A DNA stretch of 64,000 bases. It comes from Melanopsichium pennsylvanicum (Eukaryota > Basidiomycota > Ustilaginomycetes > Ustilaginales). Numbering within the stretch: the stretch's first letter is position 1; the number at the start of each line of letters is the position of its first letter. The stretch lies in NCBI GenBank assembly GCA_900208305.1, contig OAPG01000002.1, forward strand, positions 1,674,001 to 1,738,000, given 5' to 3'. The position numbers and the translations under genes were made by a program. Under the pieces are notes generated by a model. That model ran no database searches. It had not been told where the DNA came from and saw nothing but the letters and a program-made list of their open reading frames with translations. Shown piece by piece: positions 42,377 through 61,467 of the stretch.

Positions 42377-45300
42377 ATGACCCCCAACGACTCAGCGACA
42401 AACAGCCTTTATTGCGAAGTCGAGCCTAGCAAGATACCTACAGAATCACCAGCAGCTTCGGGATCATCTTCACGATTGACTAAAATGGACAAAATCTCGA
42501 CCGCGATAGTATTCCCCTCTTCTTCCCACAGCTCCGTCGATACGTATGATGACGACGCTCGCCATGGCGTCAGCCGATCAAGTGGCTCTTCCTCAATAGC
42601 TTCGCCTGCGGTCTCGACACCGAGGGCGACATCGCCAGACCAGGCCTCGGCACTGCATTCTCGCAACAGGACGACAGCATTCGAATGCTCTTCTTGCGAC
42701 AGCTTGGGAAGTCCTGTCTCTCCTGCTTCGGAATCCACGGTTCCAGTCTGCATGGCTGGCCTCGCTCTTCAGGTGCAATCCGCTGTCTCTCGCAATGTCA
42801 CTGGGCCCCTAGTTCAGGTACTGACCGACGCGGAAGAAGCATCTGCTCTTCACCAGACAGGAGATGATATGCACAACGCTGATTTGCACGGTGCAGGAGC
42901 GAGCGGCTTGAGCTCTAGAACTGAACCTCTGCATCGACAAGGGTCTGGAAGCTCCGACTGTGTCACTGCACTCAGTTCGCCCGACCCGGCGTCACGAGAC
43001 GTCGCATCCCGCTCGCCACTGTCGGCCATGTTCAGCAGCACAAGCGAGGAGGCCATCGGCACAGCGCTCGGGTCAGCTAGTGCAGTCAATGACCTACAGT
43101 CATCTTCGTTGATTACTCCCAAATCCCAAGAGCGTGATAGCGGCAGCAGTGAGGGCAGTGGCACCGATTCTTCTGCTGCTCAAACTGACATCAGTCGCAC
43201 ACCTTCCACTTCGACCACAGGCTCGAGCCACGCAGGCAGTCTCGATACAGCCATCAGCTCCATCCCCTCGGGCACTGAGTTCGAGACGAATTACAAGTCG
43301 CACGTCGAGGAGCGTTCGGCAGATACCTTCCGCGTCGAGGTTGGAGAGTACGACTCGAGTGTGCCGCCAAGCCAAGCTTCTCCAGTCTCCTTGATCTCCG
43401 AAGGCGACGCTGCTTTTCTGGAATACCCCGGTCTAATCGAAGGAGGCGCAGTAGATAGCATCGCCGAAGCCAAGTTCACGACAGCCAAGATCCGTCGCTA
43501 CGCCGCTTTGCTCGAACTCGTCGACACTGAGCGCAACTACGCTGATGATCTCGCCACACTGGTTCTGGTCTTTTTTGACAACCTCTGTATGATGCCCTTT
43601 TTCAACGACCAGCCTGCTCGCCAGGCCCTCGTGATGAGGAACTCGGAAGATTTGCTGCGCACCCACCAAAAGCTCTCAGCTAAGCTTGAAGGTATACTGA
43701 TCGATCTCGGCCTTCGAAAGGCGGGTCAGCGCGGATTGATGGACGACAAGAAGACCGAGCTCGAGAAGGCTTTGAGCCCTCAAGCCGACGAGGCGGTCGT
43801 TCGCGCTGCCAAGCTCTTCAACCAGATGATGCCCCAGCTCCAGAGCTACAAGGCTTTCTGCTCTCGCCATGGCGAGGCTCTGGCGCTCATTCGCGAAGCT
43901 GAGAAGCGGCAAACTGACTGGGACGCATTCGAGAGGCACTGCGCCGACATCCTTAAGCTAACGCGGATGGCACCGAAGGGTGGCTCGCGACCAGCATCTG
44001 GCGCCAACACCCCTAGCGTGTGGAGCAACAGCCCCTCGTCCTACTTGACGCCCATGTCGCCCTCGGCCTCTTCGGCGCTTGCTTCCGGTTCCACGTCTAC
44101 CTTGACAGCCGGAACCAACTCTGGCCCTGGCAGCGCCGCAGCGACACCGAATCTCGGCCTTGGCTCGATGCGTCAGAATTCCTCCCGCCTGCTCTTTCGC
44201 GACTTTCTCATCAAGCCTATCCAGCGACTCTGTCTCTACCCACTCGTATTGCAGACACTGCAGAAGCACAGTTCGGCTATGGGTGACTCGGTTGAAGAGC
44301 TTGCCCTTGCCATCTCGCTTATGAGGGAGGTGGCTGACCAGGTTGACGAGGCCGGTAAGCGCCGCGAGTCTGAGCTTCGCGCCGATCTCATCTCATCTCG
44401 CATCGAGCCAAACCAAGGTGTCTCGCTCGGATTCATCAAGTCGCTCGGAGATTGCCAGCTGTCTGGTACTCTAGATGTCCTGCATCATCACCGGGTGTTG
44501 AACCCTCTCGTGGCTCCTTTGCGTTTCAAGTACTTTGGTGTCTTTGTCTATCACAGCTTCTTGCTCATGGTCAAGGTACGCAAGAATTCGACGTACGAAT
44601 GCCGACACTGGTTCCCGCTCTGGGCAGCGCGCCTTTCCAACGTCGAAGAGGAGAGAAACCTAATTCCTCACTCCTTCCGCCTCTCCGTGAAAGACCACCA
44701 CTTCGAGCTTGCTGCTTCCAACACCAAGGAGAGACAGCTATGGATCGACATGCTTTCGCTGGCCATCTCCCGCGCTACTTTCTCGCCTCCCGGCACTGAA
44801 GCAACATTCCCCTGCAGTCTCTACTTCGGTGACGCTGCCGATGGCGAGTCACTAGAGGCTTCGGAAGCTCAGACGCCTAACGCGAGTCGTCCTTCGGAGT
44901 TCCAGGGCTATTTCGATGCAGCCAAGGCCGGCACCGTTGATCCGCTGATGGAGTTCCTTGCTATGCACGCCGCTGGAGCAGCGCAGGCAACCGGCTCGAG
45001 CCAAAAGGGGCAACGCATTTCGTCGGGACCTTGGATGCCCACCGAGATTCTGCTGCGACATGCTTCATCCAATTCACGAGCAATAGTGGACCGCGGAATG
45101 GTGCTCTCCGACTCGGTCATCTCTGCCCGTATTGCCCGTGACGGAGGAGCCCTTTCGACCTTGTATGCAGCCTCCGGATCTGGCATCGGGTCAGCTGTGG
45201 GCTCTTCCCTCGGTTTGAGCCGTCTTGGTGCGAAGGAAACTTCGACTGTAAAGATCCAGCGCCGCAAGAGCTGTGCTGATGTGCTCGAGAATGCTGACGC

Positions 45301-46657
45301 CATTGAGGACCCAAACAACCTGGTCTTCACCGCCACTTTTGTGCAGCCCAGCTCGCGTTCACGCTCCTCGACGAGGGTGCAGCTGGATGATCGAGAGGGA
45401 TGGAAGTCATCTCTGCTCAAGAAGGCCAACAGGGTGCGCCCAGCTAGCATCTTTGCGCCGACCGGTCTAAGTATCAATACTGAGCTGGGCAGCCCAACTT
45501 GGACGCCGGGCTCGGTTTCCACACCCACTTCGCCTGTCACGGCCAGTCGCGATCTTCCTGTGCACGAGTTTGGCACCTTTGGTGTTGCTGGCTCTGTTCC
45601 TTTGAGCCCAATTTCGCGACCCACATCCACCGGACCAGGGCCAACTTTGCACTCGCTCACCTCGTCGCCCATCTCAGGGCCCAACTCAGCAGCCAATTCG
45701 ACCGTCAATCTGCGAAGTAATGTGCCGTCAATGCCGCCACGATCACGCCCCAGCCTATACGGCATGAAGGATTCTCTGACTATGACTTTCGGAAGGAGAA
45801 CGCGAACTCGTTCCGCGCAGGAAGGCTTCAGTGACAACCTCATTGCTGACTTTGGCGCTCTCTCAGCGCAGTCTCTGACGGCTCCTTCGCCATTGGCGAG
45901 CAACCTGAGCTTGCCACACGGAGAGGTGGTCGACAGCAGCTCGCAAAGACCCTCGATGGAGGATCTGCACGCCCAGCAACAGAAGGCTCGATCCGACGGT
46001 CGATCGCGCACCAACTCGATCTCGTCTGTCACCGGCTCCCTGCGTCGTGTGTTTACCACCGCTTCCCTTGCGCCTCTCAACCACAAACGCGCCCAGAGCG
46101 ATGCTGTCAAGTCGCTCGGCGGCTCTGCGCAGTCCGAAAGGCAGTTGGCACACGGGTTGCCGACGCCGCTGACTGAATCGGCACCTTCCGATGTAATGAC
46201 TGACATTCCGGAGGGCAACGAGTCTCCACGCAAGACTGGCTTCAATACCTTGCGCAGATCCAGGACGATGCTCAACTACTCGCGGAACTGGTTCCGCGCT
46301 TCTGCAGCTGCCAGCGAAGTTCAACGAGTCAACGCCGAGGCAGTCTCTCCTGTGCATGGTTTGCGAAGGCATCCGTCATCGATGACCACAACCACAGCTT
46401 CCTCGGCTGACGACTTCGATATCACAAGGGAAGCTCCTAAGCCGCTGCGTACTGGTAGCGCTCCTGTCACTCGCCAGACCCCCAAATACACCGAAGGTTT
46501 CAGGAGGGCATCGGACACCCAACTCACCACCATCTCTGAGCTGCACCGTGATACAACAGGTGGCATAGGAATGCGACGAGCATCCAGGGGTTTTAATCCG
46601 CTCAGGTTCCTCCAAAATAATCGACTCTCGCCCCTACCCTCGAGAACCGGTGCCTGA
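42377..46657 (+). CDS. Rho guanine-nucleotide exchange factor (DH-PH)
   Basis: A 1426-residue protein. The first 365 residues are Ser/Thr/Pro-rich and probably disordered. A Dbl-homology domain starts at about 371 (KIRRYAALLELVDTERNYAD), includes LFNQMMPQLQSYKAFCSRHG, and ends with the signature FRDFLIKPIQRLCLYPLVLQ. It is split by about 75 Ser/Gly-rich residues (about 530-604). A PH domain follows (about 696-798: SGTLDVLHHHRVL, FGVFVYHSFLLMV, FELAASNTKERQLWIDMLSL). The last 600 residues are Ser/Pro/Arg-rich with many possible phosphosites. Such proteins load Rho-family GTPases with GTP to control polarity and the actin cytoskeleton. No CH, FYVE, BAR or PB1 domain is seen, so it is not an obvious Cdc24 or Don1 equivalent. 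The target GTPase cannot be told. The ATG at 42377 is chosen. Confidence 0.9.
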   Translation: MTPNDSATNSLYCEVEPSKIPTESPAASGSSSRLTKMDKISTAIVFPSSSHSSVDTYDDDARHGVSRSSGSSSIASPAVSTPRATSPDQASALHSRNRTTAFECSSCDSLGSPVSPASESTVPVCMAGLALQVQSAVSRNVTGPLVQVLTDAEEASALHQTGDDMHNADLHGAGASGLSSRTEPLHRQGSGSSDCVTALSSPDPASRDVASRSPLSAMFSSTSEEAIGTALGSASAVNDLQSSSLITPKSQERDSGSSEGSGTDSSAAQTDISRTPSTSTTGSSHAGSLDTAISSIPSGTEFETNYKSHVEERSADTFRVEVGEYDSSVPPSQASPVSLISEGDAAFLEYPGLIEGGAVDSIAEAKFTTAKIRRYAALLELVDTERNYADDLATLVLVFFDNLCMMPFFNDQPARQALVMRNSEDLLRTHQKLSAKLEGILIDLGLRKAGQRGLMDDKKTELEKALSPQADEAVVRAAKLFNQMMPQLQSYKAFCSRHGEALALIREAEKRQTDWDAFERHCADILKLTRMAPKGGSRPASGANTPSVWSNSPSSYLTPMSPSASSALASGSTSTLTAGTNSGPGSAAATPNLGLGSMRQNSSRLLFRDFLIKPIQRLCLYPLVLQTLQKHSSAMGDSVEELALAISLMREVADQVDEAGKRRESELRADLISSRIEPNQGVSLGFIKSLGDCQLSGTLDVLHHHRVLNPLVAPLRFKYFGVFVYHSFLLMVKVRKNSTYECRHWFPLWAARLSNVEEERNLIPHSFRLSVKDHHFELAASNTKERQLWIDMLSLAISRATFSPPGTEATFPCSLYFGDAADGESLEASEAQTPNASRPSEFQGYFDAAKAGTVDPLMEFLAMHAAGAAQATGSSQKGQRISSGPWMPTEILLRHASSNSRAIVDRGMVLSDSVISARIARDGGALSTLYAASGSGIGSAVGSSLGLSRLGAKETSTVKIQRRKSCADVLENADAIEDPNNLVFTATFVQPSSRSRSSTRVQLDDREGWKSSLLKKANRVRPASIFAPTGLSINTELGSPTWTPGSVSTPTSPVTASRDLPVHEFGTFGVAGSVPLSPISRPTSTGPGPTLHSLTSSPISGPNSAANSTVNLRSNVPSMPPRSRPSLYGMKDSLTMTFGRRTRTRSAQEGFSDNLIADFGALSAQSLTAPSPLASNLSLPHGEVVDSSSQRPSMEDLHAQQQKARSDGRSRTNSISSVTGSLRRVFTTASLAPLNHKRAQSDAVKSLGGSAQSERQLAHGLPTPLTESAPSDVMTDIPEGNESPRKTGFNTLRRSRTMLNYSRNWFRASAAASEVQRVNAEAVSPVHGLRRHPSSMTTTTASSADDFDITREAPKPLRTGSAPVTRQTPKYTEGFRRASDTQLTTISELHRDTTGGIGMRRASRGFNPLRFLQNNRLSPLPSRTGA

Positions 46658-47365
46658 GACCATCCATCGCTATCGTAGCGAATCTATACCTAGCATTGTA
46701 TCGCTCTTTTCAGCACATTTGTATTTCTGCTCAATCATTCTCTAGCCATATAATGGCACTAATTGCATTTCTTGATCCGCTTTGAGCTCATTATTATTGT
46801 GTTTTGCGAAATATGACTGCGACGATGAAGTGTGAAATTGTGATGGGCGTAAGAAGCTGCTCGTGATGAATGGAACGGAACAGAGGCGTGATTCATGTCA
46901 GCGAAAAACAGTTGGATCAAGACGCTGATCAAGACGCGGAACTCGGCGGCTTCTTACAGTATCTTCTTCTCCACATCATGCGAGTTCATTAAACTTTTCT
47001 TGTTTGATCATCAAAGAGTCCTTTCACTCACACACCCAGCAACAAGCATCAAACATCCAGGGAAGCCTAAGCGGTACCAAAGCACGGATTTGACCAGACT
47101 CGAATCAGACTTTGGCTACACACTTCCGGCTCGACGAGTAGCGTCAAGCACCGACTTCTTGCACTGTCACTTGGTGTTGCTCGCAAAGAGACCGTCATAA
47201 TCTGACACACGTTCATCGGCCGGTCGACAGCATGCAGTATCTATGATCGCCAACTGCATCATTTCCATAGTCTGATTGCCCCCAAATTGTACTGCTCAAC
47301 ACGCTCCAGCTCAGGAAGATTGCCCGTCGATCCAGCCGTCCCATCCCAAAGCAAGTCTATCCAAG
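46658..47365. other. Intergenic region between RhoGEF and IMP1
   Basis: About 0.7 kb. AT-rich terminator-like sequence lies at 46690-46810. No gene seen. Confidence 0.35.
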
Positions 47366-48331
47366 ATGTTTCGACTAGGGGGCTTCAACCGCCGGCCATG
47401 GATCACGAACGCAGCCTACACAGGCGCCATAACAATACAAATAGCATGTACAGTCCATCTAATCAACGAGCATGTGTTGGAAGTGCGCAATTCCACCGGA
47501 GCCTCTATGCTGCCCACTTTGGCACCGGAAGGCGATTTTCTTCTCCAATTGCGGTTGCCTTTCACTCGCTTCCTTGACTCGATAGCAACCACTTTCGCAC
47601 GCCTTTCGCCGGTGGAAGATGGATCGAAGCATCCCTACTACAATAGAGGAAGAAAGAATATTGGCGGGGGTGGATTCAGCAAGAGTGACCAGGCGCAGGG
47701 GACAGGATTGAAGATAGGGGATCTGGTCGTGGCGTTGAGCCCCTTCGATCCCAGTAGGTCCGTTTGTAAGCGAGTAATTGGCTTGCCAGGGGACACTGTA
47801 TGCTTGGATCCCAGAATGCGCCCTCTACCCGAGCATGCTTGGCGTGGTCGGAAGGCGCTAGAGCAACCGCAAGCAAAGAGGGGAGTTAACGCTGAGGATG
47901 CTGGGGGAGATGAATTAGGAGGGAAGCTGGTAAAGTTTGAGGATCTGCTCGCAAGCCTCGGCGCAACCAAATCTTCAGCCGCAAGTCCATCCTTTGAGAA
48001 AAACATTTTGGTTGACGGCGAAGTCGACCTTTTGAAAAGCATGGACACGGACCCTCACCTAACGCCAGACACATCCGAAGCAGACACAATCGCACACAAT
48101 ACAGCAGCAGCATCCGAAATCACCCAACACACCTACATCCGAAGCAAAGGAGACGTGCAATACGTAACGGTACCACTAGGTCACGTCTGGCTAGCAGGGG
48201 ACAACATGGGCAATTCTACCGACAGCAGACATTACGGACCTGTGCCATTGGGAATGGTAAGGGGCAAAGTTCTGGCTCGGGTCTGGCCTAGTCCACGGTG
48301 GTTGACAAACAAATTGACTTTCGTTGATTGA
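47366..48331 (+). CDS. IMP1: Mitochondrial inner membrane protease subunit 1
   Basis: A 321-residue member of the type I signal peptidase family (S26). The catalytic dyad is S47 in GASMLPT and K135 in CKRVIGLPGD. Box E is PLGHVWLAGDNMGNSTDSRH followed by YGP. A membrane anchor lies at about 16-34. The enzyme cleaves sorting peptides of proteins delivered to the intermembrane space. Yeast Imp1 has about 190 residues; the extra length here comes from a segment at about 72-112 and a larger acidic, low-complexity insertion at about 150-275 between the Lys box and box E. The frame extends upstream without an ATG; MFRLGGFNRR at 47366 is the first ATG. Imp1 rather than Imp2 is judged from the overall motif pattern only. 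Confidence 0.87.
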   Translation: MFRLGGFNRRPWITNAAYTGAITIQIACTVHLINEHVLEVRNSTGASMLPTLAPEGDFLLQLRLPFTRFLDSIATTFARLSPVEDGSKHPYYNRGRKNIGGGGFSKSDQAQGTGLKIGDLVVALSPFDPSRSVCKRVIGLPGDTVCLDPRMRPLPEHAWRGRKALEQPQAKRGVNAEDAGGDELGGKLVKFEDLLASLGATKSSAASPSFEKNILVDGEVDLLKSMDTDPHLTPDTSEADTIAHNTAAASEITQHTYIRSKGDVQYVTVPLGHVWLAGDNMGNSTDSRHYGPVPLGMVRGKVLARVWPSPRWLTNKLTFVD

Positions 48332-48558
48332 AGATTCACGGTCGTCGGAGATCAATCAAAACCTTCCTAGGGTGTCACGCACATGTGTGTGCCAAGTGTT
48401 CGCGGAATGGGTATCTGCAATATGCATGACTCATGAGACGGGTGCGCAGAGAGAGAATTGAAGTTGATAAAGTACAGGGTATATATGAGGGATATGTTAC
48501 ATAACACTGACGATACTTGCATGAACCTAAGATCAATGGTGTGAAAGTGGGCCTTGAG

Positions 48559-49605
48559 TTAGTGCCATCCGCACCTCTTGCGAAGAGCCACACTCCACTG
48601 GTGGCGCTGCCAATCCAAGATGATGGGGACAATATCTTGAAGTCCGAATTGGGGCCAGAACTTGTCGACAAAGTGCATGTGAGTGTTCTCCGTGCATTGC
48701 CAGAGCATAAAATCGCTCAATCGAGAGACTCCCGAGGTTCGGACGAGGATGTCTAGTGGTGGAGAGTGTGCCAACTGCATGTGCTCCGAAAGATCTTCTG
48801 GGGAAGTATTGTAATCTATGGATTTGAGTATGTGGTCGAGCGAGGCTTGGGTGTCTCCCTCTGCGATTCGTTGTGCTTTCTCCGCTACAGCAGCCTTCTC
48901 TATGTCTCTCAGCTTGCGATCAAGACAAGCCCTGGCTGCGCCCGCAATCTCATCCCTACTCGAGTAAGGCATACAGATGTTCAAAATCGCCTTGGAGTTG
49001 TCCTTTGTCATACTCTCGACTCTCTCCACAGCCTCTCTGACGTCCTCGGGTAGCAGCTCTTTCCTTCCCACCACCCGAATCCGAACACTGTATCGGGCAA
49101 TGAGCTCCCCATGACCCGCCAACTCAATCAAACGTGTCTTGGCGATCTCCATCAATGCTTTGACCTCGCTCTCACTTCGGCCGAAGTTGTCGATTGCAAA
49201 AGCGTACACTGTGACCGTTGAAAGACCACCAAGATTGAGACAGACCTCAAGAACGGACTTGAGAGTGGCGAAACCGGTCAAGTGACCTTGGGCTACGGTG
49301 TGGTGTGACGTTCGAGCCCAACGGCGGTTGCCGTCCATTACGAAGGCTATGTGTCGAGGAATAGGGCCAAGGCTGAGAGTGTGTAGCAGAAGTTGTTGGA
49401 GTGACGGGACAGGAAGGAGGGACAGAAGAGAAAGCGGAGACAAGGCTGCTTGTTTCAGAATTTGGGTTTTGGTGGGCATGCTCGAAGTACTGGTTTGTGG
49501 TTGTGACTGCGCTCGCGACTTCGCCTCGTGAGTGCTTGGTTTGGACGATCGTGACTGTGCAATGTCGGCGATTCCGACGCTTGGTGCGGAATCTGCCAGC
49601 GGCAT
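48559..49605 (-). CDS. RER2: cis-Prenyltransferase (dehydrodolichyl diphosphate synthase)
   Basis: A 348-residue member of the UPP synthase family, which adds isopentenyl units to farnesyl diphosphate to build the dolichol backbone used in protein glycosylation. The substrate site is HIAFVMDGNRRWAR (85-98, catalytic D91). Other conserved boxes are GHLTGFATLKSVLEVCLNLG, VTVYAFAIDNFGRSESEV, LNICMPYSSRDEI and the C-terminal ILVRTSGVSRLSDFMLWQC with FVDKFWPQF. The first 80 residues are variable with a hydrophobic stretch (LSLLSLLPVPSLQQLLLHTL) that may associate with the ER membrane. M43 is an alternative start. It lacks obvious Nus1/NgBR-type loss of the active site, so it should be the catalytic subunit. 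The gene is convergent with IMP1, 227 bp apart. Confidence 0.92.
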   Translation of the reverse strand: MPLADSAPSVGIADIAQSRSSKPSTHEAKSRAQSQPQTSTSSMPTKTQILKQAALSPLSLLSLLPVPSLQQLLLHTLSLGPIPRHIAFVMDGNRRWARTSHHTVAQGHLTGFATLKSVLEVCLNLGGLSTVTVYAFAIDNFGRSESEVKALMEIAKTRLIELAGHGELIARYSVRIRVVGRKELLPEDVREAVERVESMTKDNSKAILNICMPYSSRDEIAGAARACLDRKLRDIEKAAVAEKAQRIAEGDTQASLDHILKSIDYNTSPEDLSEHMQLAHSPPLDILVRTSGVSRLSDFMLWQCTENTHMHFVDKFWPQFGLQDIVPIILDWQRHQWSVALRKRCGWH

Positions 49606-50043
49606 GACGTGTGTTGAAGAGCACAGTGCTCAATGTCGAGGAATAAATAATGCGAGGTGGAAGGAGTTTGTATCACAAAGTCGGAAAGCGCGATTAGGTC
49701 GCAGTTCTTGCCAAAAAGATGAACCGCAACCGAACTCTGATGTTGCAATTTCCCAGAATCTTCCTATTTGCAGACAAAATCGGCATCGGGAGAAGAATGT
49801 ATGCAGCGAGAATCTGTGAATACAACAAATCTTGTACTGCTTGCCGCCTTCTCTACACTTTAACGCGGTTGGGCCATCACGTTGGCCAGCTTTTCCACCT
49901 CACCTTGCTTCGTCACCATCGTCGACGGCGTTCACAGGTCCACGCCCAACTCAGCTCACTGAACAACATCATTCAGCTTCAACAACAGTCAAGGTCGGAA
50001 TCGATTCATAGCAGCAGCTACACTCGAGTTGGCGTGTCTCAAG
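49606..50043. promoter_or_regulatory. Divergent upstream region
   Basis: About 0.44 kb between the starts of the prenyltransferase gene (-) and the acidic trafficking-protein gene (+). Both promoters must fit here. No recognised motif was found. Confidence 0.35.
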
Positions 50044-51813
50044 ATGGATTCAGATCCGTTCGCAGTATGGGATGATCCCACACCAACACCTGCACCAGCA
50101 TCTTTCATTTCTGCCTCAAAAGATTCCAAGAGCGCTAAAGAAGAAGAAGACGTGCGCCTATCACTAGAATATGAAGACGACGATCCGGGATGGGGTGCTG
50201 CGTTAGCGTCAACAAGCAGGGCGAACAGCCCAGAAAAGTCAAGAAAGGCAGCTTCAACCACTGCGCATGTCACCCCAATCGCAGGAACCACGGTTCTGGA
50301 CGAGACAGAGATGGCTGTTTCGTCATTAAATGAACGGCGTCAAGAATTGCATACACCAGCGTCAGCTCTGGACGAGACTCCTGCAACCGGTGCTGCGAAA
50401 CAGGCCACAGCCACGGCTGAGAAGACTGTACCAGAGGAGTCATCGACAGAGAGTGATGCGACACTCCAGTTTGCAACGGAAGATGGAGATGATGACGAGG
50501 TCACTTTCAAAGATTCGCGAAATGGGCAAATCGGGCAGAATGAGGTCAGTCTCACACCAGAGCTTACAGAAGAGGCTGTTATCACCGCCCCGACAGAAGA
50601 AGATGACGGCTTTGATGACTTTGGCGAGCCGTCCGGAGCGGCCAGTGCTGGAGCAGATCATGATGACTTCGGCGACTTTGATAACTTCGAGACGGGTGAC
50701 GCGCAGGACGATGACGACTTCGACGACGGCGGGTTTGACGAGCCAGCCGCAGTGACAGAACAGAGATCAGCAGCACCGCTAACGGCGACACCAGTACCAA
50801 CACGATCTTGGGCTCCACTTGATGTCACACCAAGGTCAAATCGGCTCCAACTCGCAGACTCGGTCAACGCGTTGCTCCCACTCTCAGTCGCGGCAGAGAA
50901 GGAGCTTCTAAACGTACCACTGCGTCAGGTGGAAGGCCTTTCGCAAGTGCTGGTGAGCGGAGAGTCGCGTCAGCTGTTGGCGGATCTTTCCACGTTCCCC
51001 TCGGTAAGACCTATTGATTGGGTACGCAGCAAGACCCGTCGTGACTACCTCATCTCGATGGGTGTACCTGTCAATCTTGACGAGATTCACTCAAGCTTTG
51101 CTACGGGATCGGCTGGCTCGAGGCAATTGCCGCCGCTGCAGCTCAAGTATGATTCATCCGCCCAACGTACATCTGGGTCGCTTGATGTAAACGGCAGCAG
51201 TCTCCAAAGGAGCTCGAGTCTCAATGTTGCTGGGACATGTTCGGGACAAACAGCGGCAGCGCAACGATCAGCATCGACCTCAAACAGCCCGAGAAACGGA
51301 AGTCAAAGTCCGGCACTTGGCTCAAGTGCGAATCGCGAGCGAATCGCTGAACGCCGCATGCAAGAGCTCGGTCTAGGACCCGCACCTCAAGTGGACCTAC
51401 GACGAGCCGAAGAACTTGTCAACAAGACAGAGGACCAACTAACTCTACTTTCTCTGCCTGCACTCAAGTCGATATTGAGAGAGTTCAACACGCTAACGAC
51501 GTCTACGTCGAGTTTGCTGACGCACCACCTGACGCTAAGGGAGAGCTATCAAGCGGACTCGGAGATGTATAATTCGATGATCAAGGATCTTGTCACAGGC
51601 GCAGCGAGCAGATTCAGCGGTAGCGGTGGTGGAAGCAACTCGGTGGCTGGTGGGAGGGGGGATAGCAGAAGATCGACGACGATGGGTACGAGTGTATCGA
51701 GCTCGGGAAAAGCGAGGGTGAGTAGCTTACCAGCAGGGTCGGCAGCCATGAGCGGGGCAAGGTCGATGAGTCCGTCGTTGAGAGGTGGAGCTGGGTCGAG
51801 TCCGAGACGGTGA
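50044..51813 (+). CDS. Probable AP-1/clathrin accessory protein (aftiphilin/Laa2-like)
   Basis: A 589-residue protein. Its N-terminal half is acidic and contains repeated acidic-phenylalanine motifs, GFDDFGEP (about 189-196) and DDFGDFDNF (207-215), then DDDDFDDGGFDEP. DFGDF-type motifs are known ligands of the gamma-adaptin and GGA ear domains. A more ordered region at about 270-355 reads LADSVNALLPLSVAAEKELL and RPIDWVRSKTRRDYLISMGV followed by PVNLDEI; I associate this with a fungal family that includes yeast Laa2, but from memory and without a search. A helical segment follows (about 435-520), then a Gly/Ser/Arg-rich tail. A role in clathrin/AP-1 transport at the trans-Golgi is inferred. 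The first ATG in frame is at 50044. Confidence 0.7.
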   Translation: MDSDPFAVWDDPTPTPAPASFISASKDSKSAKEEEDVRLSLEYEDDDPGWGAALASTSRANSPEKSRKAASTTAHVTPIAGTTVLDETEMAVSSLNERRQELHTPASALDETPATGAAKQATATAEKTVPEESSTESDATLQFATEDGDDDEVTFKDSRNGQIGQNEVSLTPELTEEAVITAPTEEDDGFDDFGEPSGAASAGADHDDFGDFDNFETGDAQDDDDFDDGGFDEPAAVTEQRSAAPLTATPVPTRSWAPLDVTPRSNRLQLADSVNALLPLSVAAEKELLNVPLRQVEGLSQVLVSGESRQLLADLSTFPSVRPIDWVRSKTRRDYLISMGVPVNLDEIHSSFATGSAGSRQLPPLQLKYDSSAQRTSGSLDVNGSSLQRSSSLNVAGTCSGQTAAAQRSASTSNSPRNGSQSPALGSSANRERIAERRMQELGLGPAPQVDLRRAEELVNKTEDQLTLLSLPALKSILREFNTLTTSTSSLLTHHLTLRESYQADSEMYNSMIKDLVTGAASRFSGSGGGSNSVAGGRGDSRRSTTMGTSVSSSGKARVSSLPAGSAAMSGARSMSPSLRGGAGSSPRR

Positions 51814-53874
51814 TTCGATCAACTTGCTTCACAGATGTAGATGCTCAGCATGCAACCATCCACTATGCCAATTAGTGAAGTCTTTGCTCAGCCTTCATCC
51901 TCTGCCTACTGTGAGACGACGCATTCACAATGTGATAGGAGGATATGTGACCTGGGAAAAGTGACTCACACTGAGTCATGTGGTTTGGCCGGTCCCGATG
52001 CGGGTTCAAGCCAATCACCGATCCTGCATGCATGTACAATAATTTTACATCTTGTGATTGACCTTGCCGAGTGGTCGCGCTGCAACTGAAAAGCTCAAAA
52101 TGAGTGCCCCACGTAAAGCTTTTTGCATCGTGCGCGGAGCACTTGGAGAGCGTCGAAGGGCAGGAATTTCAGTAGCGACAATCAGCGCTCCCAAGATTTT
52201 TGAAATGCTCGACACGACACGTTGGACGGACGGACGGACGGAAGGACACAGCGCGCTCTGTTGGTTGACGCGACTAGGTCGCTGTCACGTGGCATCATTA
52301 TAGAGTATCTGTATTATAAGTATTTTTGTCGTGTTGATGTGGATGAAACGTTGTTTCGGTGGTGATAGTAGTAGTGTTGTTGTTTGGTTTGAATTTGAGC
52401 AAGCCCTTTACAGCAGACGTGGACAGTAACATGCATTCGAAACAGAGCGGAGATGGCACATCACTATTTTTGTAAATTACATTTTCTGCTTCAACTCCAG
52501 AGCAGCCTTGAAGGATTAGCATTGCATAGTTTAGGCAGTCCCGCATATATTTGCCAGTTTCAGTTGCGAATCGCGGGGCAACTCTTGAGGTGCCCACAGC
52601 TGATTTGCCAGGGTGGCACAGCACAATAACAATGTCAGCCGTGTCGATGTGCTGTCACCGCCAAAAAATAAAATAAAACAAGAAAGTAACAACGGGGGTC
52701 GCCTCTTATTGGATCGTCAACACATTCATCGGCTCGGGTGCAACTCTGGAAACCCACAAAGCTGCTAAGCTGATCAACAAGCGAACAATCCTCGCTGTCC
52801 ACTGCTGGTGACTAGAACGCCTGGTCTATGTCTATTTCCGACACGCTCACCAAACCGATCAGAGGGCGGCCCGTACTTTATCAATCAAAGGCTTAACTTA
52901 GGTGGGGTTTGAGCATGCCCACGAGGCATCTCTTGCTTATTGGAAAGCGGGCGAAAGGAAGAGAGAAAGATAGGTATTCCCTCCGTCCGTAGCCTCCGAT
53001 GGTCTAGTGCGGCTTTGTTCACACTCCGACGTGTTCTTTGTTCCTCTATTCCGATGTGCCAACTGCCGAAAAGTGGCTGTCTAGTCGTAAAGCTTTCGTC
53101 GGAGAAGTAATGCGGTCCGAGTGATGGTTTAAAATCCAATCTTGTGGCATTCAACCTTGGCTATCATCCTAGACTACCGTCGCGAGGTCTCATGAGAACC
53201 ACTTTATGAGCAGCATCTCACCAATCTGAGTCTCAAAATTATAGCATCAACCACTGTATCACGCGCTGCACTTCTACCTTCTTCCTGAGATCCTCCAAGT
53301 CACAAAGGTTCCGCTAGATTGTGCTGTACAGTAATCTACAGTGTGATGTCAATCAACGGCTCGCTCGTCCTAATTCAAGATCAGTTTTTGACTTGCATAA
53401 CAGATGCCTGCTGTCTACCTCGCTTCTAACATCCAGACAATCCCCGGCTCTTCGCGTATCAAAGAGTTCCTCTCCCCCCTTTGTTTTGCAGGCTGATCCT
53501 CTATTGTCCACCCAATCTGCGCCCGCAATCGGCTTCGTCAGGTTGAATCTGCAGGCCCCCGCAACTTGGCTCCAACCCTGCCCTGCCTCTCTTCACTTTG
53601 GATTTCTCTGACCACCTTTCGAATCGTCCTCCCTCCCATCACTACCACCATCTTTGTCCTCCGAAGTTCCCTTTACGAACCTTCACTACCGCCCTTCTCC
53701 CTATCTCGGCACTCCCTATATACCCAACAATATCCCTTACAGATCTTTTCTCCTGAACCACACGCGCAGGGCAAGCTCTCACCAAACGGCTGCAACTTGA
53801 CCTTTTTCTCGACCCAAACTGACTTTCACATCCTCTCGAGGTGAGGTAGATACCCTGTTCTCAAATCTCGGGTC
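51814..53874. other. Intergenic region upstream of the RNase H-fold gene
   Basis: About 2.1 kb. It contains a (GGAC)n run at about 52224-52240, AT-rich stretches near 52300-52490, a palindromic motif copy at 53327-53342 and a long C/T-rich leader (53400-53870). No gene is supported. Confidence 0.4.
53327..53342. repeat. Dispersed palindromic motif, copy 5
   Basis: TACAGTAATCTACAGT, almost the same as the copy at 3895-3912 apart from one missing A in the core. Confidence 0.5.
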
Positions 53875-56800
53875 ATGCCTACTGCAACCAAGCGCAGAGA
53901 GGCCTCTGTGCGCAATTTCAAGCGCAGACCTTCGGCGACCGCTCGCTCGGAGTCAGGTTACTCACGTCGATCCTCCGTGGGTTCCTTCAAGACTGCAAAC
54001 GGTGCTTCCTCTGACTATGCTCCTGGAGGCATCTCCGCGTCAGAGCAATACGAAAATGAAGACGAGGCTGATCCCGAGTACGGCCACGACGCTACCATGA
54101 TTCGTTCGACCAGCAAACGAAGTCTCGCCTCGGACGAAGATGGTGAAACCGAGACCGTTTCTCGTCAAGATGGCTCACCAAACGGTTTCGTCGCGGCGGA
54201 AGGAGAGCACGACGATCAAGCGTCAAGCAATGCTTCAGAGGAATCCCTCGCCATTTTTCATGCAAAACCTTCCAGCGATACCAGCACCGTCCACAAATCC
54301 CCTCCTACGTCTCAAGATGATGCTGCATCGCATGATGCCACCGTTAGGGACCAGCGCAGTCCATTGCAGAACTACAACTCCAAATTCAAGCCGGCACGTC
54401 ATGAGCTTCTCATACCCGACACTGCTCTCGCAAGCAAAGGCCGTGCTGATCGCAAGGGCGTCCGCGCCTCGCACGCTAGCCACTTGACCCTTCCTTACCA
54501 GCCCTCCGAAGCAGGTGACTACCTCGAATCCTCCAGGCGTCTGAGCAAGATGACCATGTCCAGTTATGATCCTCGCAGCAGGGCACCTTCTCGTGCAGCC
54601 AGCTTCATGGACGATATCCTTGACATGGAGATGCGCGATGCACGACACCGCTCCGTGTCGGAACGAGGCGGTACCAGGTCCAGTCGTCTTCTGGCTCCCG
54701 CTTCAGTCCGTGACTTTGGAGGATCTGTCAGCGACTCATATCAACCGCAGCGAGGAACTGGCTCGCGCTACGCGTCGAGCTACATCGAGCCCAGCTCTCT
54801 CAGATCCCCCTCCAAACAGGACACACGCAGGTTGCACGCAGCGGGGATCCACCATCGCGATTCTGATCGCCTCAGCATCAACTCTCGCGGCACCGCTCGC
54901 AAGCCAGCATCTGTCACGTCCAAGACTCTTGACGCAGACACCCAGGTCTTTCCAGGGACACGTATTCGCAAGTACATCGAGCCGCAGCTCAATGAGGCCA
55001 TGCGTCGTGTTATGAAGCAATTCTCGGGTCACAGTATGCAGGATCATAGATGTAACGGCTACCCTATCGCGGTGTTCGTTGGCGCAACTGCTATTGACAC
55101 TGGCAGCATCATCCAGCCTCATGTTTCGGGATCTATCTCGCTGTACTTTGGACCTGGTCATCCTAAGAATATGGCTTCGCTTCTGCCGGAAGAGGACAGG
55201 ACACCAAGCCACATCCCTAATCCAAAAGCCCCCACTCCAGCCTCTCTCTCCCGCCGTGCTGAACTGCGTTCTGCCATCACTGCACTTCACACCATCTACG
55301 AGCTCTACCGCGGCCGCGCGTGTGCCCATGTCTGCATCGACTCGGCGTACGTAGCAAAGGCGTGGGGTACCTGGATCCCAACTTGGGAGCTCAAAGGCTG
55401 GCCTGGCGAGGACGATGAACAAGAAGGTGACCGCGAACGCTGGGAAGAAGAATACTATGAGCGCCGCCGTACCCAGCGTAGGGCGTACGATAGACATGGC
55501 ACGCGGTACATGCATCTTCCTGATCGACGTGACCGTGACCGCAGCAGGGATGGCTATGCAAGTGACGGCGGACGTTACAGATCGCGCGACTCGCGAGCTC
55601 AACCTCGTAGCAGGTACAACGATCGCGATGATTGGCTTTCTAGCGACCCTTATGCTGACCGTAGCAGGCGTCGTGGTGACCGCGGCCCTCCTCCGCAGTC
55701 TCCTCGTCGACGAGGTAACCGCAGAGACTACGACTACTCCTCGGAAGAAGACGATTACAACTCTCGTCGCGGTGGTCGACGCAGATACGATGACGAGTAC
55801 GGCAGTCCGTACTCACCCGATCGCGCCCCTCCTCGTCGTCGCCCAATGCGTCGTGCACCTGGCCGTCGTCTTGTTGATGAGGATCTTCTCCGCGAGCTCG
55901 CTGACATTCGTTATGAATTTGCACGAGTCGAGCGCGATCGCCAAGGAAGTGCCCACCTCTACCTGATCGACCGGAGCAACAACCCCGCCGACCGCATGGC
56001 TCGCGCAGTTGCAAAGTCTGAAGGAAGCCTGCTTCACCTGGCGGATGAATTCGACACACAGTCCGAGATCGGGTTACACGTGGATGAAGCGCCGTTGTCC
56101 GACGATGATAATCCCCTCGGTGAGGAAGACGACGATTGGTTGGAGACGCGCAGTCGCTTCTCGACTCGTTCGAAGAGCACCAAGGGCGGTGCCCGAGTGA
56201 GCAGTAGGAACAGCAGGAGGGAGAATATCATTTCGAACGCTACGGGTAGGTTGAGGACCAGCGCTTCGCTGCCATCGGGTCATCTGAGGGGCGGACCGAG
56301 GAGGCAATTGGATACATTCGCTGAGGAAGATGAAGACGACCTTGCTGAAGACGCTAAATCTGTTCGCTCTGTTAGAAGTCAGCGTTCCGAGCGCTCGCGC
56401 AAGTCGACCCGAGCCGAGAGGGAGAGAGACGACTATCTCGCCAGGCAGGACAAGTTCGGGGCGGCGGAAGCAGCTGCGATCCGACGCTCCACCCAACGCT
56501 CGGCATCGCGTGCCAGCCACCTCTCCCCACCTGCCCCTCGATCCGAAGCAGGTGGTGCTCGGCGCTCCTTGGATTCGCGCAGGAACCTATTCTCGCCTGA
56601 GCCTGCGTCTAAACGTGGCTCGATGGACTCCAGGAGGCGGATGAGCAATGTTCGTTCCCAAACCGATATTCGTTCACAGAACGGTCGAAGCGGGACTGCG
56701 AAAAGCGCGCTTGCGTCGGCTGCTGTGATTAACGGGGAGGACCTGGAAGAGGAGGAGAGTTTCAGACCGCGAAGCTCCTTGCAGATGCACCAGGGCTCCC

Positions 56801-57273
56801 CCGGTGGATCCAGGCATCCTAGGACTCGAATGATGTCTGCAGAAAATGACTATCCCGAAATGGAAGACTTGGTTCCGCCCGTGCGGATGTGGGACAACGG
56901 GTCGGTGTATTCGAGGAACAGCATCGACAGCCGCCGCGGCCCAGCCTCTCCTCGAAAGGGTTTCTTCGGTGGCACATCCGAGCGGCAACCGCCACAATCT
57001 CCCTCAGGATCAGAAAGAAAGGGTTTTGGGTTGTTCTCAAACCGATCCACGCCCTCTCTTCATCGCGCCCCCGCACCAGAAGATCCGGACTACGAATGGT
57101 CTAAAAGCTCCAGAAAAAGTACGAGCAAGGGAAGGAGCGCGAGGCAGCAGCGTGAGTGGCATTCTACAACCCCCAAGGATTACAACAACGGCGCAGAGAG
57201 GAGTCAGTGGGAGCCAGAGGAAGGTGCGAAAAAGTCCGGCTTTTTGAGTCGAATGTTTGGTCGCAAAAAGTGA
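53875..57273 (+). CDS. Large protein with a divergent, interrupted RNase H domain
   Basis: An 1132-residue protein. Residues 1-357 are Ser/Arg-rich and probably disordered. Residues about 396-510 and 666-717 together match RNase H: strand IAVFVGA (398-404), SLYFGPGHPKN, RRAELRSAITALH (E463), HVCIDSAYV (D489), then GTWIPTWELKGW (498-509). After a 155-residue Arg/Asp/Tyr-rich insertion come LVDEDLLRELADI (666-678) and NNPADRMARAV (702-712, D706). Three of the four catalytic acidic residues are kept; the first, normally in a TDG motif, is Gly403. Cleavage of RNA in RNA-DNA hybrids is therefore doubtful; binding or a changed reaction is possible. Residues 718-1132 are again Arg/Ser-rich, ending FLSRMFGRKK. 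The ATG at 53875 is chosen. The function is unknown; the fold is my inference from motif order. Confidence 0.8.
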   Translation: MPTATKRREASVRNFKRRPSATARSESGYSRRSSVGSFKTANGASSDYAPGGISASEQYENEDEADPEYGHDATMIRSTSKRSLASDEDGETETVSRQDGSPNGFVAAEGEHDDQASSNASEESLAIFHAKPSSDTSTVHKSPPTSQDDAASHDATVRDQRSPLQNYNSKFKPARHELLIPDTALASKGRADRKGVRASHASHLTLPYQPSEAGDYLESSRRLSKMTMSSYDPRSRAPSRAASFMDDILDMEMRDARHRSVSERGGTRSSRLLAPASVRDFGGSVSDSYQPQRGTGSRYASSYIEPSSLRSPSKQDTRRLHAAGIHHRDSDRLSINSRGTARKPASVTSKTLDADTQVFPGTRIRKYIEPQLNEAMRRVMKQFSGHSMQDHRCNGYPIAVFVGATAIDTGSIIQPHVSGSISLYFGPGHPKNMASLLPEEDRTPSHIPNPKAPTPASLSRRAELRSAITALHTIYELYRGRACAHVCIDSAYVAKAWGTWIPTWELKGWPGEDDEQEGDRERWEEEYYERRRTQRRAYDRHGTRYMHLPDRRDRDRSRDGYASDGGRYRSRDSRAQPRSRYNDRDDWLSSDPYADRSRRRGDRGPPPQSPRRRGNRRDYDYSSEEDDYNSRRGGRRRYDDEYGSPYSPDRAPPRRRPMRRAPGRRLVDEDLLRELADIRYEFARVERDRQGSAHLYLIDRSNNPADRMARAVAKSEGSLLHLADEFDTQSEIGLHVDEAPLSDDDNPLGEEDDDWLETRSRFSTRSKSTKGGARVSSRNSRRENIISNATGRLRTSASLPSGHLRGGPRRQLDTFAEEDEDDLAEDAKSVRSVRSQRSERSRKSTRAERERDDYLARQDKFGAAEAAAIRRSTQRSASRASHLSPPAPRSEAGGARRSLDSRRNLFSPEPASKRGSMDSRRRMSNVRSQTDIRSQNGRSGTAKSALASAAVINGEDLEEEESFRPRSSLQMHQGSPGGSRHPRTRMMSAENDYPEMEDLVPPVRMWDNGSVYSRNSIDSRRGPASPRKGFFGGTSERQPPQSPSGSERKGFGLFSNRSTPSLHRAPAPEDPDYEWSKSSRKSTSKGRSARQQREWHSTTPKDYNNGAERSQWEPEEGAKKSGFLSRMFGRKK

Positions 57274-57429
57274 GCGTCTCAGCTTCAAAGAATGATCATG
57301 TTCAGGTTGCACAGAACGGTTTGTTCGGGACGAAACGAAGTGTACGTTGAATTTTTGTACTATTGCATGCGATGGTAACGTTATCTTGTGCCCGTCTCGA
57401 GAGCCTTTTGTGAAGTTGTGATGACTATG

Positions 57430-60400
57430 CTAGCCGGCGATGCCGACAGTGAAAATGCGAAAGTCGTCTGCGCCACGCCAATCGAACGCCACAACACCAG
57501 CATCGCCGGCCAAGTCTGGAAACAGAGCGTGTGCTGCCGAGATTGGCTCTTCCTCCCCTTGGCCGCGCTGTCCCTGACGTTGTGGGAACGGCAAGACGAG
57601 AGACTGCGAACCGCAGCTGTGGGGGTCGAGGTCGATGGGATGGAGTGTGAGCAGTGGCGCACAGAGATACTCTAACTCCTGATTGATCGCGCTGGGTGCA
57701 GTCATGCTGCGCTCGTTGGGCGTAGCGATAGAAGGATAGGCAAAAGATTGTTCTTCGGTCATGGCACGCCAACCATCACCCACGCTGGTTGAGTCATCGC
57801 CGACCTCACCCGATGCAATAGGTCGGATTTGTGTGGAAGATTGCAGGCCGGCAGCAGTGCCGTTCGCGCGGCTGTAGTCTCTACCCTGTGCGAGGGGAAT
57901 AAGCTCGAGCTCGCTGTCCAGAGACAGATCAAAGTCTACGGTCACTGGGACCCTAATTGAGGCTTTGCGAGATTCGATTCGACTGGGTAGGAACGCGACG
58001 CAGGTCACACCGACGTGTAAAATGAGTCTGCTGTTCCTGCGACGAGCATTGGACTGAGCTGATCGGATGTCTTCAAACGAGTTTGGTGGGTCAGAAGATG
58101 TCAAGGTGGTACTCGACTGCTTCAGTTGACTCGAAGGCGTATTGCCCCTGAAACTTGACCGCTCGACACCCAAGACTCTTGCCCACCCGGACACAGCATT
58201 CGGTGTATCAGACCATTGCATCACTGCCAGCGGTGCGGCTTGAGCCAGATCGGCGGCTAGCGGAAGCTGCATGACGTGAGTGAATGCGCCTCTAGATGCG
58301 AAGGCTAATCTGGCTGACACAAGCTCTGCGGGCGGAAGTGAAAAAGAGCGATGTGGTGTCTTCAGATGGGCTGAAGAGCTCTGAGACGGTACTGCCCCAC
58401 CTGGCTGGAAGTGTTTGTGAGGAAGAGGCCCAGGATCGGTCAGCTGATATTTCGCAGCCCGCTCTCGCTTATCGACCAAGCCAATGTCATCGCTGCTGTC
58501 ACTGCTGCTGTCGGCCTGAAGCTCATCGTGGAATTGCGAGATTTGCTGGGGCAAGTGCAGCCTTGACATGCGTCGGTCAAAAGAAGCGTTCTGATTGGCG
58601 GGAACTCTAGGAAGGTCCTTGTCCACATCGATGAGCGATGAGCTAGGTGTTGAGGAGACAGATTTTACTATCGACAGACCCATCGGCGATAGGCTCACGC
58701 CATCGCGACGCTGTGGCCACTTGTTCGGAAATGCTCCTTTACGTTCTATCGCCTGGTCAGACCACTGCCTGATGAAAATGCGTGCTTCAACATTCGAAAA
58801 GCCGACCCAATTATGCTTGTTCGACCTCTTGTCGAGGGTTGAGTCTCTGATTCTTTGTTCCATCGAGCCTGGACGGGAATGACCAGAGCCGCTTGGCATC
58901 TGGCCGTCTGTCCACAGAGCACCGTCGCCGACCGTGCTCAAAGGTCGGGAGCGTTCAAATCTGGCTTGATGCTCGACTGTACCGGTCAGAGGATTGGGCT
59001 GAAGCGACAGTTGTGTTGTCGATCCGCTTTCGTGCCCATCAGCAGCGGCGACCAAAATCTGAGAGAGGGGCTTGAGGTCCATTTCGCGGACGTGCGAGTC
59101 TCGAAGACGGACGAGCACTGCACGACGGCCGAAACTTAGCAGCAAGCAGAGGTCCGCTTTTTGCCAAGAGGCTGGAGCAGCCGTGGTGCGGGACGAGTTG
59201 ATGGGGCTTGAACCTCCACTTTCGCGAATAGAACCGCTGGCATGGTCGCGATCGCGGTGAGAGCCTTTCTTTAATGTCGACAGGGGACCCTCAGCGGAAG
59301 CAACCCTCAATTTTGTCGGACCTGTGTTTGCTGGTCCAGGGCCCAGGCCGGTGAACGGATGTAGCTCGTCAGAAACTGCGGCTGGGGCGAAAGCGACGGC
59401 CTTTATTGGGAATGGTGCATAGAGCTCCTTGACGAAGGACCAAGCCCTCGATGATTCGGACCTTGGCATAGAAGCCTCGTAGACCATGACACTGCGAGCA
59501 TAGGCGATGGCAAGATACCATGTGCCGGATCCTTTAGTGTCAGCGCCTGCCTGGTGGATAGAAAAGAACAAGACGCCTTTGGAAGCACTTTGTGCGCCCG
59601 CTTCCCGGTCCTTTCCTTTGCCGCCAGCTTGTCTGCCTGCTGAAAAGGACTGGATGAGATCGTCCGCAAAAAGCGAAGTGAACGACGCGTTGTGACCGTA
59701 GGATTGGGCGGTCGCATGAGACGGTGGCTGGATAGGCACGGAGCTGGACGCTAAGGACAATGCTGCGGCATGTGCCGGATCTTGCTGGCGTTTTGATGAC
59801 GGAGGTGAAGTCTGAGGAGGTATGGATCCATCAGGATCATGCTGAGGTAGACGCGGTGGTGCTCTGCTTCCCAAGGATGTCTTTGGAGGACTTGACGCAG
59901 CTCTCGAAGAGAAAATTGGTAATGATTGCTGAGAGTGGGATGCTGACATTGTAGTAGCATTAGCTCTGGGTAGAGGGTTGATCGTTGCCGAAAAAGAGGC
60001 GCTCGAAGCGCTTCGTTCATGTGTGCCGGACTTTGCTTCAGCCCAGGTTTTGGGTTTAGAGAAAGTCTTCTTGAGGATGCTGCCAAGTCCAGCTCTTTTG
60101 TCTCCGAAGCTGCTGGATGGTTCTGCTAGATTGATGGGAACCTGCGCATCTTGTCTATCAAGGGCGTAGCTTAGTAGCTCTCGGATGGCTTGCAGGTGCC
60201 ACATTCTGACGACACCTGTGCCGCCGGGTGGTACAGCACGACCTGGACCGCCTCCAGCTGTAGATCCAAAGTTGGCAGCCGCAACGCCATCGTTGAGGTC
60301 GGGAACGGTTTGGCTTTGGTGGCTCGAGCTAGAAGAACTGGATGCGAATGCCGCGGAAGACACGACACTCTCCAGAACGGAGCCAGCATGAGCACTGAGT

Positions 60401-61467
60401 TGCATCAGGGAGGAAGTTAGAAAGCCATCGCGAGCGGAGGAGGGGCAAGTGAGGGCCAGAAATACACCCGAACTTGGCGTGCTGTCGGATTTATGCGTCC
60501 GACTGCTTGTGGCGGCGCTATCTTGCTTGGATGCTAAGACGCACATCTGATATACGGCTAAGCCAGACCATATTGGAACGCAGCGTATGTTGTCGTTCCA
60601 CTGTCCTGGCGATGATGAAGGGCTGGATGCTGAAGGGTGCGTCTGACTGGGGCCAGACGGATTTTGAGGATGCCGAAACTGAATGGCGAAAAGGCCCTGC
60701 GCAGTACCGACGAGAAGCACTTGCCTTGTCTGAGACTTTTCAACCATGTTATGGCGAGCTGGCGCAACGAGTTCTACGAGGATGCTGCACAACGGTTGAG
60801 CAGGAAGATGTGGTATGAAGCGGGAACCGAAGTGATGTAAATGCAGTGGTGGCAGTGAGGAAGTATTGGATGTGGATGCTTGCGCGTGAGCCTCTGAGGT
60901 ATCATTATCGTCATTGATGGCATCGGGACCGTTAACCCAAGTGCCCCAGCTCTTCTTTCTGTTGGGTACGTGTGCTCCACTGTGCGGGGCATCTTGTTGT
61001 GCTAAGGCATGCTGTTCGAGCCGAGCATAATGACGCTCTAGGGCGCGCTTCTCAAGCCAGGTACCCCATCGTGGAAAGCGTGAGCCAAACGAGCGAGGCG
61101 GCAGTTCGGAGGGAGGCAAGGTCGAATTTGCGGGCTGGATGGGTTCTGGGAAGGCGTGGTGGCTCTGATCAAAGTACGAGCCTGTGCCAAGATTGGAGCT
61201 CTGCAATGCTGGAGGTGTTGGTGGAAACTGATGCGAGTCGTACTTGGGCGGAAGATCGTTTGATGGGCTGGCAACCGTTGGGTCTGCGATCCATGGAGAG
61301 GCGGCTGGAATACTGTTCCGAGTTGAGGTGTCGGGAGGCAGCATGATGCCGTGTTGGTGGGGTGAGGTCGCTTGACCTTGTCCATCAAGGCGCGTTTGTT
61401 GAGGTCGAGTGCCAGAAGGCTGAGCGGTATGCTGTGCTGGCGTCGCGAAGAGCCTGTGATTTTCCAT
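57430..61467 (-). CDS. Large uncharacterised protein with CNH-like beta-propeller segments
   Basis: A 1345-residue protein. The N-terminal 130 residues are Pro/Ser-rich. A charged segment, WGTWLEKRALERHYARLEQH (134-153), and a second WGTW motif near 174 follow. Then come beta-strand-like blocks spread over about 900 residues: VLLVGTAQGLFAIQF (250-264), VPIWSGLAVYQMCVL (about 307-321), WYLAIAYARSVMVYEAS, LYAPFPIKAVAFAP, LCLLLSFGRRAVLVRLRD, and near the end GVVAFDWRGADDFRIFTVGI. Their order resembles a citron-homology (CNH) or WD-like propeller with long Ser-rich insertions. I do not recognise a named family. Many SP/TP sites suggest phosphorylation. It is convergent with the RNase H-fold gene (156 bp between stops). 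The first ATG, at 61467, is used. Confidence 0.75.
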   Translation of the reverse strand: MENHRLFATPAQHTAQPSGTRPQQTRLDGQGQATSPHQHGIMLPPDTSTRNSIPAASPWIADPTVASPSNDLPPKYDSHQFPPTPPALQSSNLGTGSYFDQSHHAFPEPIQPANSTLPPSELPPRSFGSRFPRWGTWLEKRALERHYARLEQHALAQQDAPHSGAHVPNRKKSWGTWVNGPDAINDDNDTSEAHAQASTSNTSSLPPLHLHHFGSRFIPHLPAQPLCSILVELVAPARHNMVEKSQTRQVLLVGTAQGLFAIQFRHPQNPSGPSQTHPSASSPSSSPGQWNDNIRCVPIWSGLAVYQMCVLASKQDSAATSSRTHKSDSTPSSGVFLALTCPSSARDGFLTSSLMQLSAHAGSVLESVVSSAAFASSSSSSSHQSQTVPDLNDGVAAANFGSTAGGGPGRAVPPGGTGVVRMWHLQAIRELLSYALDRQDAQVPINLAEPSSSFGDKRAGLGSILKKTFSKPKTWAEAKSGTHERSASSASFSATINPLPRANATTMSASHSQQSLPIFSSRAASSPPKTSLGSRAPPRLPQHDPDGSIPPQTSPPSSKRQQDPAHAAALSLASSSVPIQPPSHATAQSYGHNASFTSLFADDLIQSFSAGRQAGGKGKDREAGAQSASKGVLFFSIHQAGADTKGSGTWYLAIAYARSVMVYEASMPRSESSRAWSFVKELYAPFPIKAVAFAPAAVSDELHPFTGLGPGPANTGPTKLRVASAEGPLSTLKKGSHRDRDHASGSIRESGGSSPINSSRTTAAPASWQKADLCLLLSFGRRAVLVRLRDSHVREMDLKPLSQILVAAADGHESGSTTQLSLQPNPLTGTVEHQARFERSRPLSTVGDGALWTDGQMPSGSGHSRPGSMEQRIRDSTLDKRSNKHNWVGFSNVEARIFIRQWSDQAIERKGAFPNKWPQRRDGVSLSPMGLSIVKSVSSTPSSSLIDVDKDLPRVPANQNASFDRRMSRLHLPQQISQFHDELQADSSSDSSDDIGLVDKRERAAKYQLTDPGPLPHKHFQPGGAVPSQSSSAHLKTPHRSFSLPPAELVSARLAFASRGAFTHVMQLPLAADLAQAAPLAVMQWSDTPNAVSGWARVLGVERSSFRGNTPSSQLKQSSTTLTSSDPPNSFEDIRSAQSNARRRNSRLILHVGVTCVAFLPSRIESRKASIRVPVTVDFDLSLDSELELIPLAQGRDYSRANGTAAGLQSSTQIRPIASGEVGDDSTSVGDGWRAMTEEQSFAYPSIATPNERSMTAPSAINQELEYLCAPLLTLHPIDLDPHSCGSQSLVLPFPQRQGQRGQGEEEPISAAHALFPDLAGDAGVVAFDWRGADDFRIFTVGIAG

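Follow-up and report, generated by a model that had tools for sequence, protein, structure and literature searches.

An RNase H1-type domain of smut fungi and relatives that lacks the complete catalytic set and may hold a structural zinc ion

We analysed a stretch of 64,000 nucleotides from the smut fungus Melanopsichium pennsylvanicum (contig OAPG01000002.1; G000:C2:1674001-1738000 in a 21.1-Mb genome), hereafter the window, which encodes a protein of 1132 residues with an RNase H-fold domain. We propose, with a probability of roughly 0.6, that this domain descends from RNase H1, has lost its catalytic activity and is retained as a binding scaffold in Ustilaginomycotina. That the protein contains a dead RNase H1 fold is close to certain, and a conserved set of cysteines and histidines that the original prediction on this DNA had missed is probably the key to its present role.

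The RNase H fold and its catalytic positions

The family alignment comprises 53 rows, namely the 1132-residue protein and 52 related proteins, with a core of 201 positions, and invariance was judged among the rows with a residue, at positions with at least 50 residues. The rows form three groups, the smut class (n = 21), Microstromatales (n = 7) and Malassezia (n = 25), in which unnamed rows were placed by similarity. Taxonomy was looked up for Violaceomyces and Thecaphora (class Ustilaginomycetes), Parajaminaea (Microstromatales) and M. nana (Malassezia); the remaining named members of the first group belong to the smut class as well.

The motifs from which the original prediction had deduced a hidden RNase H fold all occur where it placed them, and the profile match that it suggested looking for was found with Pfam PF00075 at an E of 3.2e-4 and 21.3 bits (25.0 in the genome search), under the curated cut-off of 25.8. 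At E <= 0.01, 28 of the 34 family members match this profile, the 1132-residue protein included. AlphaFold2 packs the two halves of the domain, on either side of a long insert, into one RNase H-fold domain, which supports the idea of an insert built into the fold; mean predicted local distance difference test (pLDDT) values of 10-residue blocks are 90-97 across residues 665-714 and 79 across 715-724. Strands β1 and β4 of the model span residues 396-408 and 482-488. Foldseek also identifies the fold, matching human RNase H1 in the PDB at an E of 1.2e-5, and in a viral structure library the best E is 3.8e-5 for an unnamed match, the named top matches being RNase H or pol proteins. The same fold is predicted for a Malassezia nana member with Ala, Glu, Ser and Leu at the four catalytic positions. 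In the full-length model of this protein (P0030), most remaining residues have a pLDDT <50, except for a 45-residue helix (608-652) in the C-terminal arm.

The genome also encodes an ordinary RNase H1 that has the four carboxylates intact (G000:C7:202040, locus L001). With this enzyme and human RNASEH1 the domain shares the fold, the order of elements, the handle tryptophans and the helix A motif (RRAEL/NRAEL); the GPGHP loop is also common with human RNASEH1. It differs in the absence of the first catalytic Asp from all rows and the decay of the others, in the loss of the basic handle, and in an additional Cys/His set and a long insert after the handle. No Pfam family for the hybrid-binding domain of eukaryotic RNase H1 was found in the 1132-residue protein at E <= 1.

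As originally reported, the first catalytic position is Gly in this protein and E463, D489 and D706 are kept, so that the four-carboxylate D-E-D-D set of RNase H type 1 enzymes is incomplete at Gly403. The alignment makes the pseudonuclease reading stronger than a single sequence could. The first Asp is absent from all 52 rows that have a residue at this position, none of them acidic, and two further carboxylates decay elsewhere: every one of the 7 Microstromatales-type rows has replaced Asp706, by Asn in 6 and by His in 1, and 20 of the 25 Malassezia-type rows have lost Asp489. The catalytic set has decayed differently among smuts, Microstromatales and Malassezia.

The Cys/His set, the handle and the present role of the domain

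Among the 201 core positions 29 are invariant, including D390, H391, C393, C483, H485 and C487. Most of the 23 others lie in the handle (Y492, A496, W497, W500, I501, P502, W504, G508, W509, P510), at R460/R461 and in helix D. C393, C483 and C487 are the only cysteines at the 201 core positions of the 1132-residue protein. C483, H485 and C487 alternate along β4 and hence share one face, by alternation that of Asp489, and H391 and C393 precede β1, which adjoins β4 in the RNase H fold. In the alignment, the genome's own RNase H1 has Leu, Glu and Val at the three β4 positions. We infer that an HxC and a CxH motif on adjoining strands can form a tetrahedral zinc site, and the sequence pattern tips slightly in favour of a structural zinc bound by the domain.

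In the arrangement that we propose, H391 and C393 before β1 and C483 and H485 on β4, with C487 near, would hold a structural Zn2+ at the base of the sheet. The conserved metal site would then be this one and no longer the catalytic Mg2+ site, an 'active site switch' as in Maelstrom. The Trp-rich handle and helix D, which are conserved best, would form a docking surface for protein or single-strand RNA and not a hybrid-binding groove. In the weakest step, the loop of the smut proteins would extend from that surface and gather the protein in a condensate of the nucleus, for example in speckles. Taken as a whole, this tentatively suggests that an 'active site switch' took place a second time, independently, within the RNase H superfamily, in which an RNase H1 lost its Mg2+ site, gained an HxC/CxHxC zinc site, became fixed as a scaffold across the subphylum and, in smuts, grew a condensate-targeting domain from its substrate handle; we hold this full course to be possible, at somewhat under even odds.

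Maelstrom is reported to have an RNase H-like fold without the DEDD residues, a structural Zn2+ bound at the base of its sheet, and RNA-binding ability (PMC4408791), and its 'active site switch' combines lost catalytic carboxylates with a conserved Cys/His set (PMC2628886; PMC4408791). The smut-type domain resembles it in fold, in the lost carboxylates and in having a conserved Cys/His set. MAEL derives from DnaQ-type exonucleases and its ligands are a Glu of β2 and a Cys/His/Cys set from the α9-α10 region, whereas the smut-type domain most likely comes from RNase H1 and its candidate ligands lie before β1 and on β4; zinc is demonstrated in MAEL and inferred here. A Pfam scan at E <= 1 gave RNase_H and Baseplate_J (E 0.2) only, with no MAEL domain, and because of this and the other ligand positions the smut-type protein is, as judged by sequence, not a member of the Maelstrom family. 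Neither Maelstrom nor another zinc-bearing RNase H-like fold is among the 50 structure matches listed, which carries no weight. Ssd1/Dis3L2 offers a fungal case of nuclease relatives without an active site that kept another function (PMC8097288); these belong to the RNase II family, the loss occurred in at least four fungal lineages and the function there is RNA binding. Dead enzymes that keep their fold and gain a new metal site are rare, Maelstrom being the example found in the RNase H superfamily. If the apparent parallel in the RNase H1 branch is true, where the Cys/His residues stay invariant and the catalytic ones decay by lineage, the way in which such a switch proceeds would become open to test.

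Several points weigh against the proposed reading. The template modelling (TM) scores of the smut model in Foldseek are moderate, 0.49-0.54 by target length (13 matches, E <= 0.001). C483, H485 and C487 could instead be buried in the core, and the site geometry is not assured because, should Gly403 lie opposite Asp489 as it would in RNase H1, C483 stands next to residue 397, four after C393. Since Glu463 is kept in 50 and Asp489 in 33 of the 53 rows, the old site may still bind some metal. The Arg/Asp-rich loop is missing from the Microstromatales and Malassezia rows and therefore is not the family's core function, and the basic tail at the C terminus of these smut proteins could just as well indicate a membrane.

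A real contender, though short of probable, is that the Cys/His set is conserved for core packing with no metal, the dead RNase H1 being kept for protein contact. Buried strands often tolerate Cys, alternation along β4 is typical of core residues, and with 23 further invariant positions invariance is not special to Cys and His. However, 52-53 rows agree at all six positions, whereas each of the four catalytic residues is variable or lost, and the residues of the genome's RNase H1 at the β4 positions are different ones.

It is rather doubtful that the domain is a repurposed nucleic-acid binder, holding RNA or an RNA/DNA hybrid uncut with the Arg-rich loop adding affinity. RNase H1 uses basic residues of its handle to bind the hybrid. 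Across the 53 rows the handle has a net charge of -2 to +1, versus +4 in the genome's RNase H1, where a Lys takes the place of Glu505 (50 of 53 rows), and this loss of handle Lys and Arg counts against binding in the manner of RNase H1. Trp500 and Trp504 are invariant, Trp500 standing at the place of the DNA-channel Trp of human RNase H1 (W221). Residue 459, by contrast, at the position of the RNA-contacting Asn (E. coli N44, human N182), is unconserved with 11 different residues. The 43 Arg of the loop and the precedent of Maelstrom would suit such a binder, but the Arg are nearly offset by Asp and Glu (net +8).

We consider it improbable that the domain was domesticated from the RNase H of a retroelement and is not a copy of the cellular RNase H1. 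There are 11 further PF00075 places in the genome (L002-L008 and others), several in long retroelement-like frames; five lie in 1271-residue frames, apparently a multicopy element that we assume to be of the long interspersed nuclear element (LINE) type. Profile scores lean towards the cellular RNase H1, with 24.6 bits against 5.1, in a comparison that covered, besides the true RNase H1, the domains of four out of seven further loci (all but L002, L003 and L006).

A nuclease that is still active, with another residue standing in for the first Asp, is very unlikely: Glu463, Asp489 and Asp706 are all present here and in rows P0002 to P0020, but nothing acidic occupies the first position, the other groups show the losses given above and the genome already has its four-carboxylate RNase H1.

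The Arg/Asp-rich insert

The insert comprises 43 Arg (28%), no Lys, 15% Asp, 7% Glu and 9% Tyr in 153 residues, with Ser, Gly and Pro as well, and its net charge is +9 (+8 across the 152 residues counted). In the AlphaFold2 model the pLDDT is <50 for at least 103 of the 153 residues, with one middling helix at 519-534. The insert measures 109-195 residues with 23-30% Arg in the 21 smut-class rows, 26-33 in the 7 Microstromatales-type rows and 40-121, often Ser-rich, in the 25 Malassezia-type rows. On a tree built from the core without the insert, each of these three insert groups needs one change (support 97/84, 100/100 and 100/99). From these lengths, compositions and changes, the enlargement of the loop, usually of about ten residues, is by sequence a family-wide trait, and the Arg/Asp domain arose, most simply, once in the smut class. 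In its Arg/Asp-rich form the insert does not extend across the family.

The composition of the smut insert fits best with an Arg-enriched mixed-charge domain (R-MCD), a class described as Arg- and Asp-rich (PMC9324279). Both have a mixed charge dominated by Arg and Asp, and the stretch found here is also predicted to be disordered; it differs in having grown inside a folded domain and in containing Tyr, Ser, Gly and Pro as well. By analogy, the insert might target the protein to a condensate, which we regard as doubtful. The insert also shows clearly how a disordered mixed-charge domain can lie within a fold in one clade and be absent from its sisters. An unspliced intron or annotation artefact, for which the 459 nt of low complexity could speak, is rejected as the donor pattern GTRNGY has no match in 55381-55900, and 20 of 21 smut-class rows (not P0021) read through a like-composed insert into the second half.

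The gene, its relatives and its surroundings

The open reading frame (ORF) shows no visible intron, and its features are collected in Table 1. Outside the RNase H-fold domain, conservation of the protein is poor beyond its class; a PAPED-x-x-YEW-type motif is present in many smut rows. The C-terminal tail KKSGFLSRMFGRKK may be a membrane or docking motif. No variants of it were seen by eye in the 25 Malassezia-type rows, and Microstromatales-type rows end differently, in a FSFKRSMSKLMTME-like sequence.

Table 1. Features of the ORF, with positions in the window
Feature	Position	Strand	Remarks
Whole ORF, 1132 residues	53875..57273	+	N-terminal arm, disordered or poorly conserved; RNase H-fold domain, interrupted by the disordered insert; C-terminal arm like the N-terminal one
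First half of domain	54988..55407	+	AlphaFold2 10-residue-block mean pLDDT 81-97, most >90; Pfam E 3.2e-4
D390-H391-x-C393, directly before β1	55042..55053	+	D, H and C invariant in 52/52 rows with a residue
Gly403, first catalytic Asp position of RNase H1	55081..55083	+	Asp in 0/52 rows with a residue
Glu463, second catalytic position	55261..55263	+	Glu 50, Asp 2, Gln 1 of 53 rows
C483-x-H485-x-C487 on β4	55321..55335	+	Invariant 53/53; candidate zinc ligands together with H391 and C393
Asp489, third catalytic position	55339..55341	+	Asp 33, Ser 19, Asn 1 of 53 rows
Trp-rich handle AYVAKAWGTWIPTWELKGWPG	55345..55407	+	Among the family's most conserved stretches; RNase H1 basic residues replaced
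Arg/Asp-rich insert, residues 512-664	55408..55866	+	Between handle and helix D; 153 residues
Second half, residues 665-722	55867..56040	+	Helix D, β5, first part of helix E (AlphaFold2)
Asp706, fourth catalytic position	55990..55992	+	Asp in 27/52 rows with second half; P0021 without it
Basic/aromatic C-terminal tail KKSGFLSRMFGRKK	57229..57270	+	Variants in 20/21 smut-class rows by eye (not P0021)

We performed protein searches that required shared 5-residue words within length windows of about 622-1981, 639-2033 and 188-598 residues; in two of them the scored candidates were the 7976 and 7998 with most shared words. They returned Ustilaginomycotina-like proteins and two short fragments, the closest named relative being an Ustilago trichophora protein with 91% identity across residues 355-740. 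Tilletia, Exobasidium and U. maydis do not appear by name among the matches of these word-based, length-limited searches, which other fungal relatives could escape. A single copy was found in the genome, where the first domain half otherwise matches only the true RNase H1 (E 0.069). No paper on this smut RNase H-fold family and none of six locus tags of relatives was found among the results listed by a literature search with subscription papers outside its scope, and the word 'Ustilago' is absent from the main text of an RNase H superfamily survey (PMC3985635).

Past the loop, row P0021 (628 residues) continues into unrelated sequence and has no second domain half; from its sequence it is a truncated or frame-shifted gene model, and its residues past the loop were treated as alignment noise, the row being omitted from the count at 706. 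Of the two fragments, P0055 (76 residues, from a 229-bp contig labelled Bradyrhizobium sp. 23AC) is 87% identical in its aligned part to the Microstromatales version of the domain and, on that identity, is almost certainly fungal contamination in a bacterial draft genome. P0054 (162 residues) is a Malassezia-like family fragment between stretches that resemble translated sequencing adapters.

The neighbours in the window (42377-61467) include RhoGEF, signal peptidase S26, cis-prenyltransferase and LAA2 family genes and an ORF of 1345 residues with a weak, sub-threshold CNH match; a functional link to the RNase H-fold protein is not obvious. Antisense to the domain runs an open frame of 358 codons (54736-55812, strand -), which is probably a by-product of composition.
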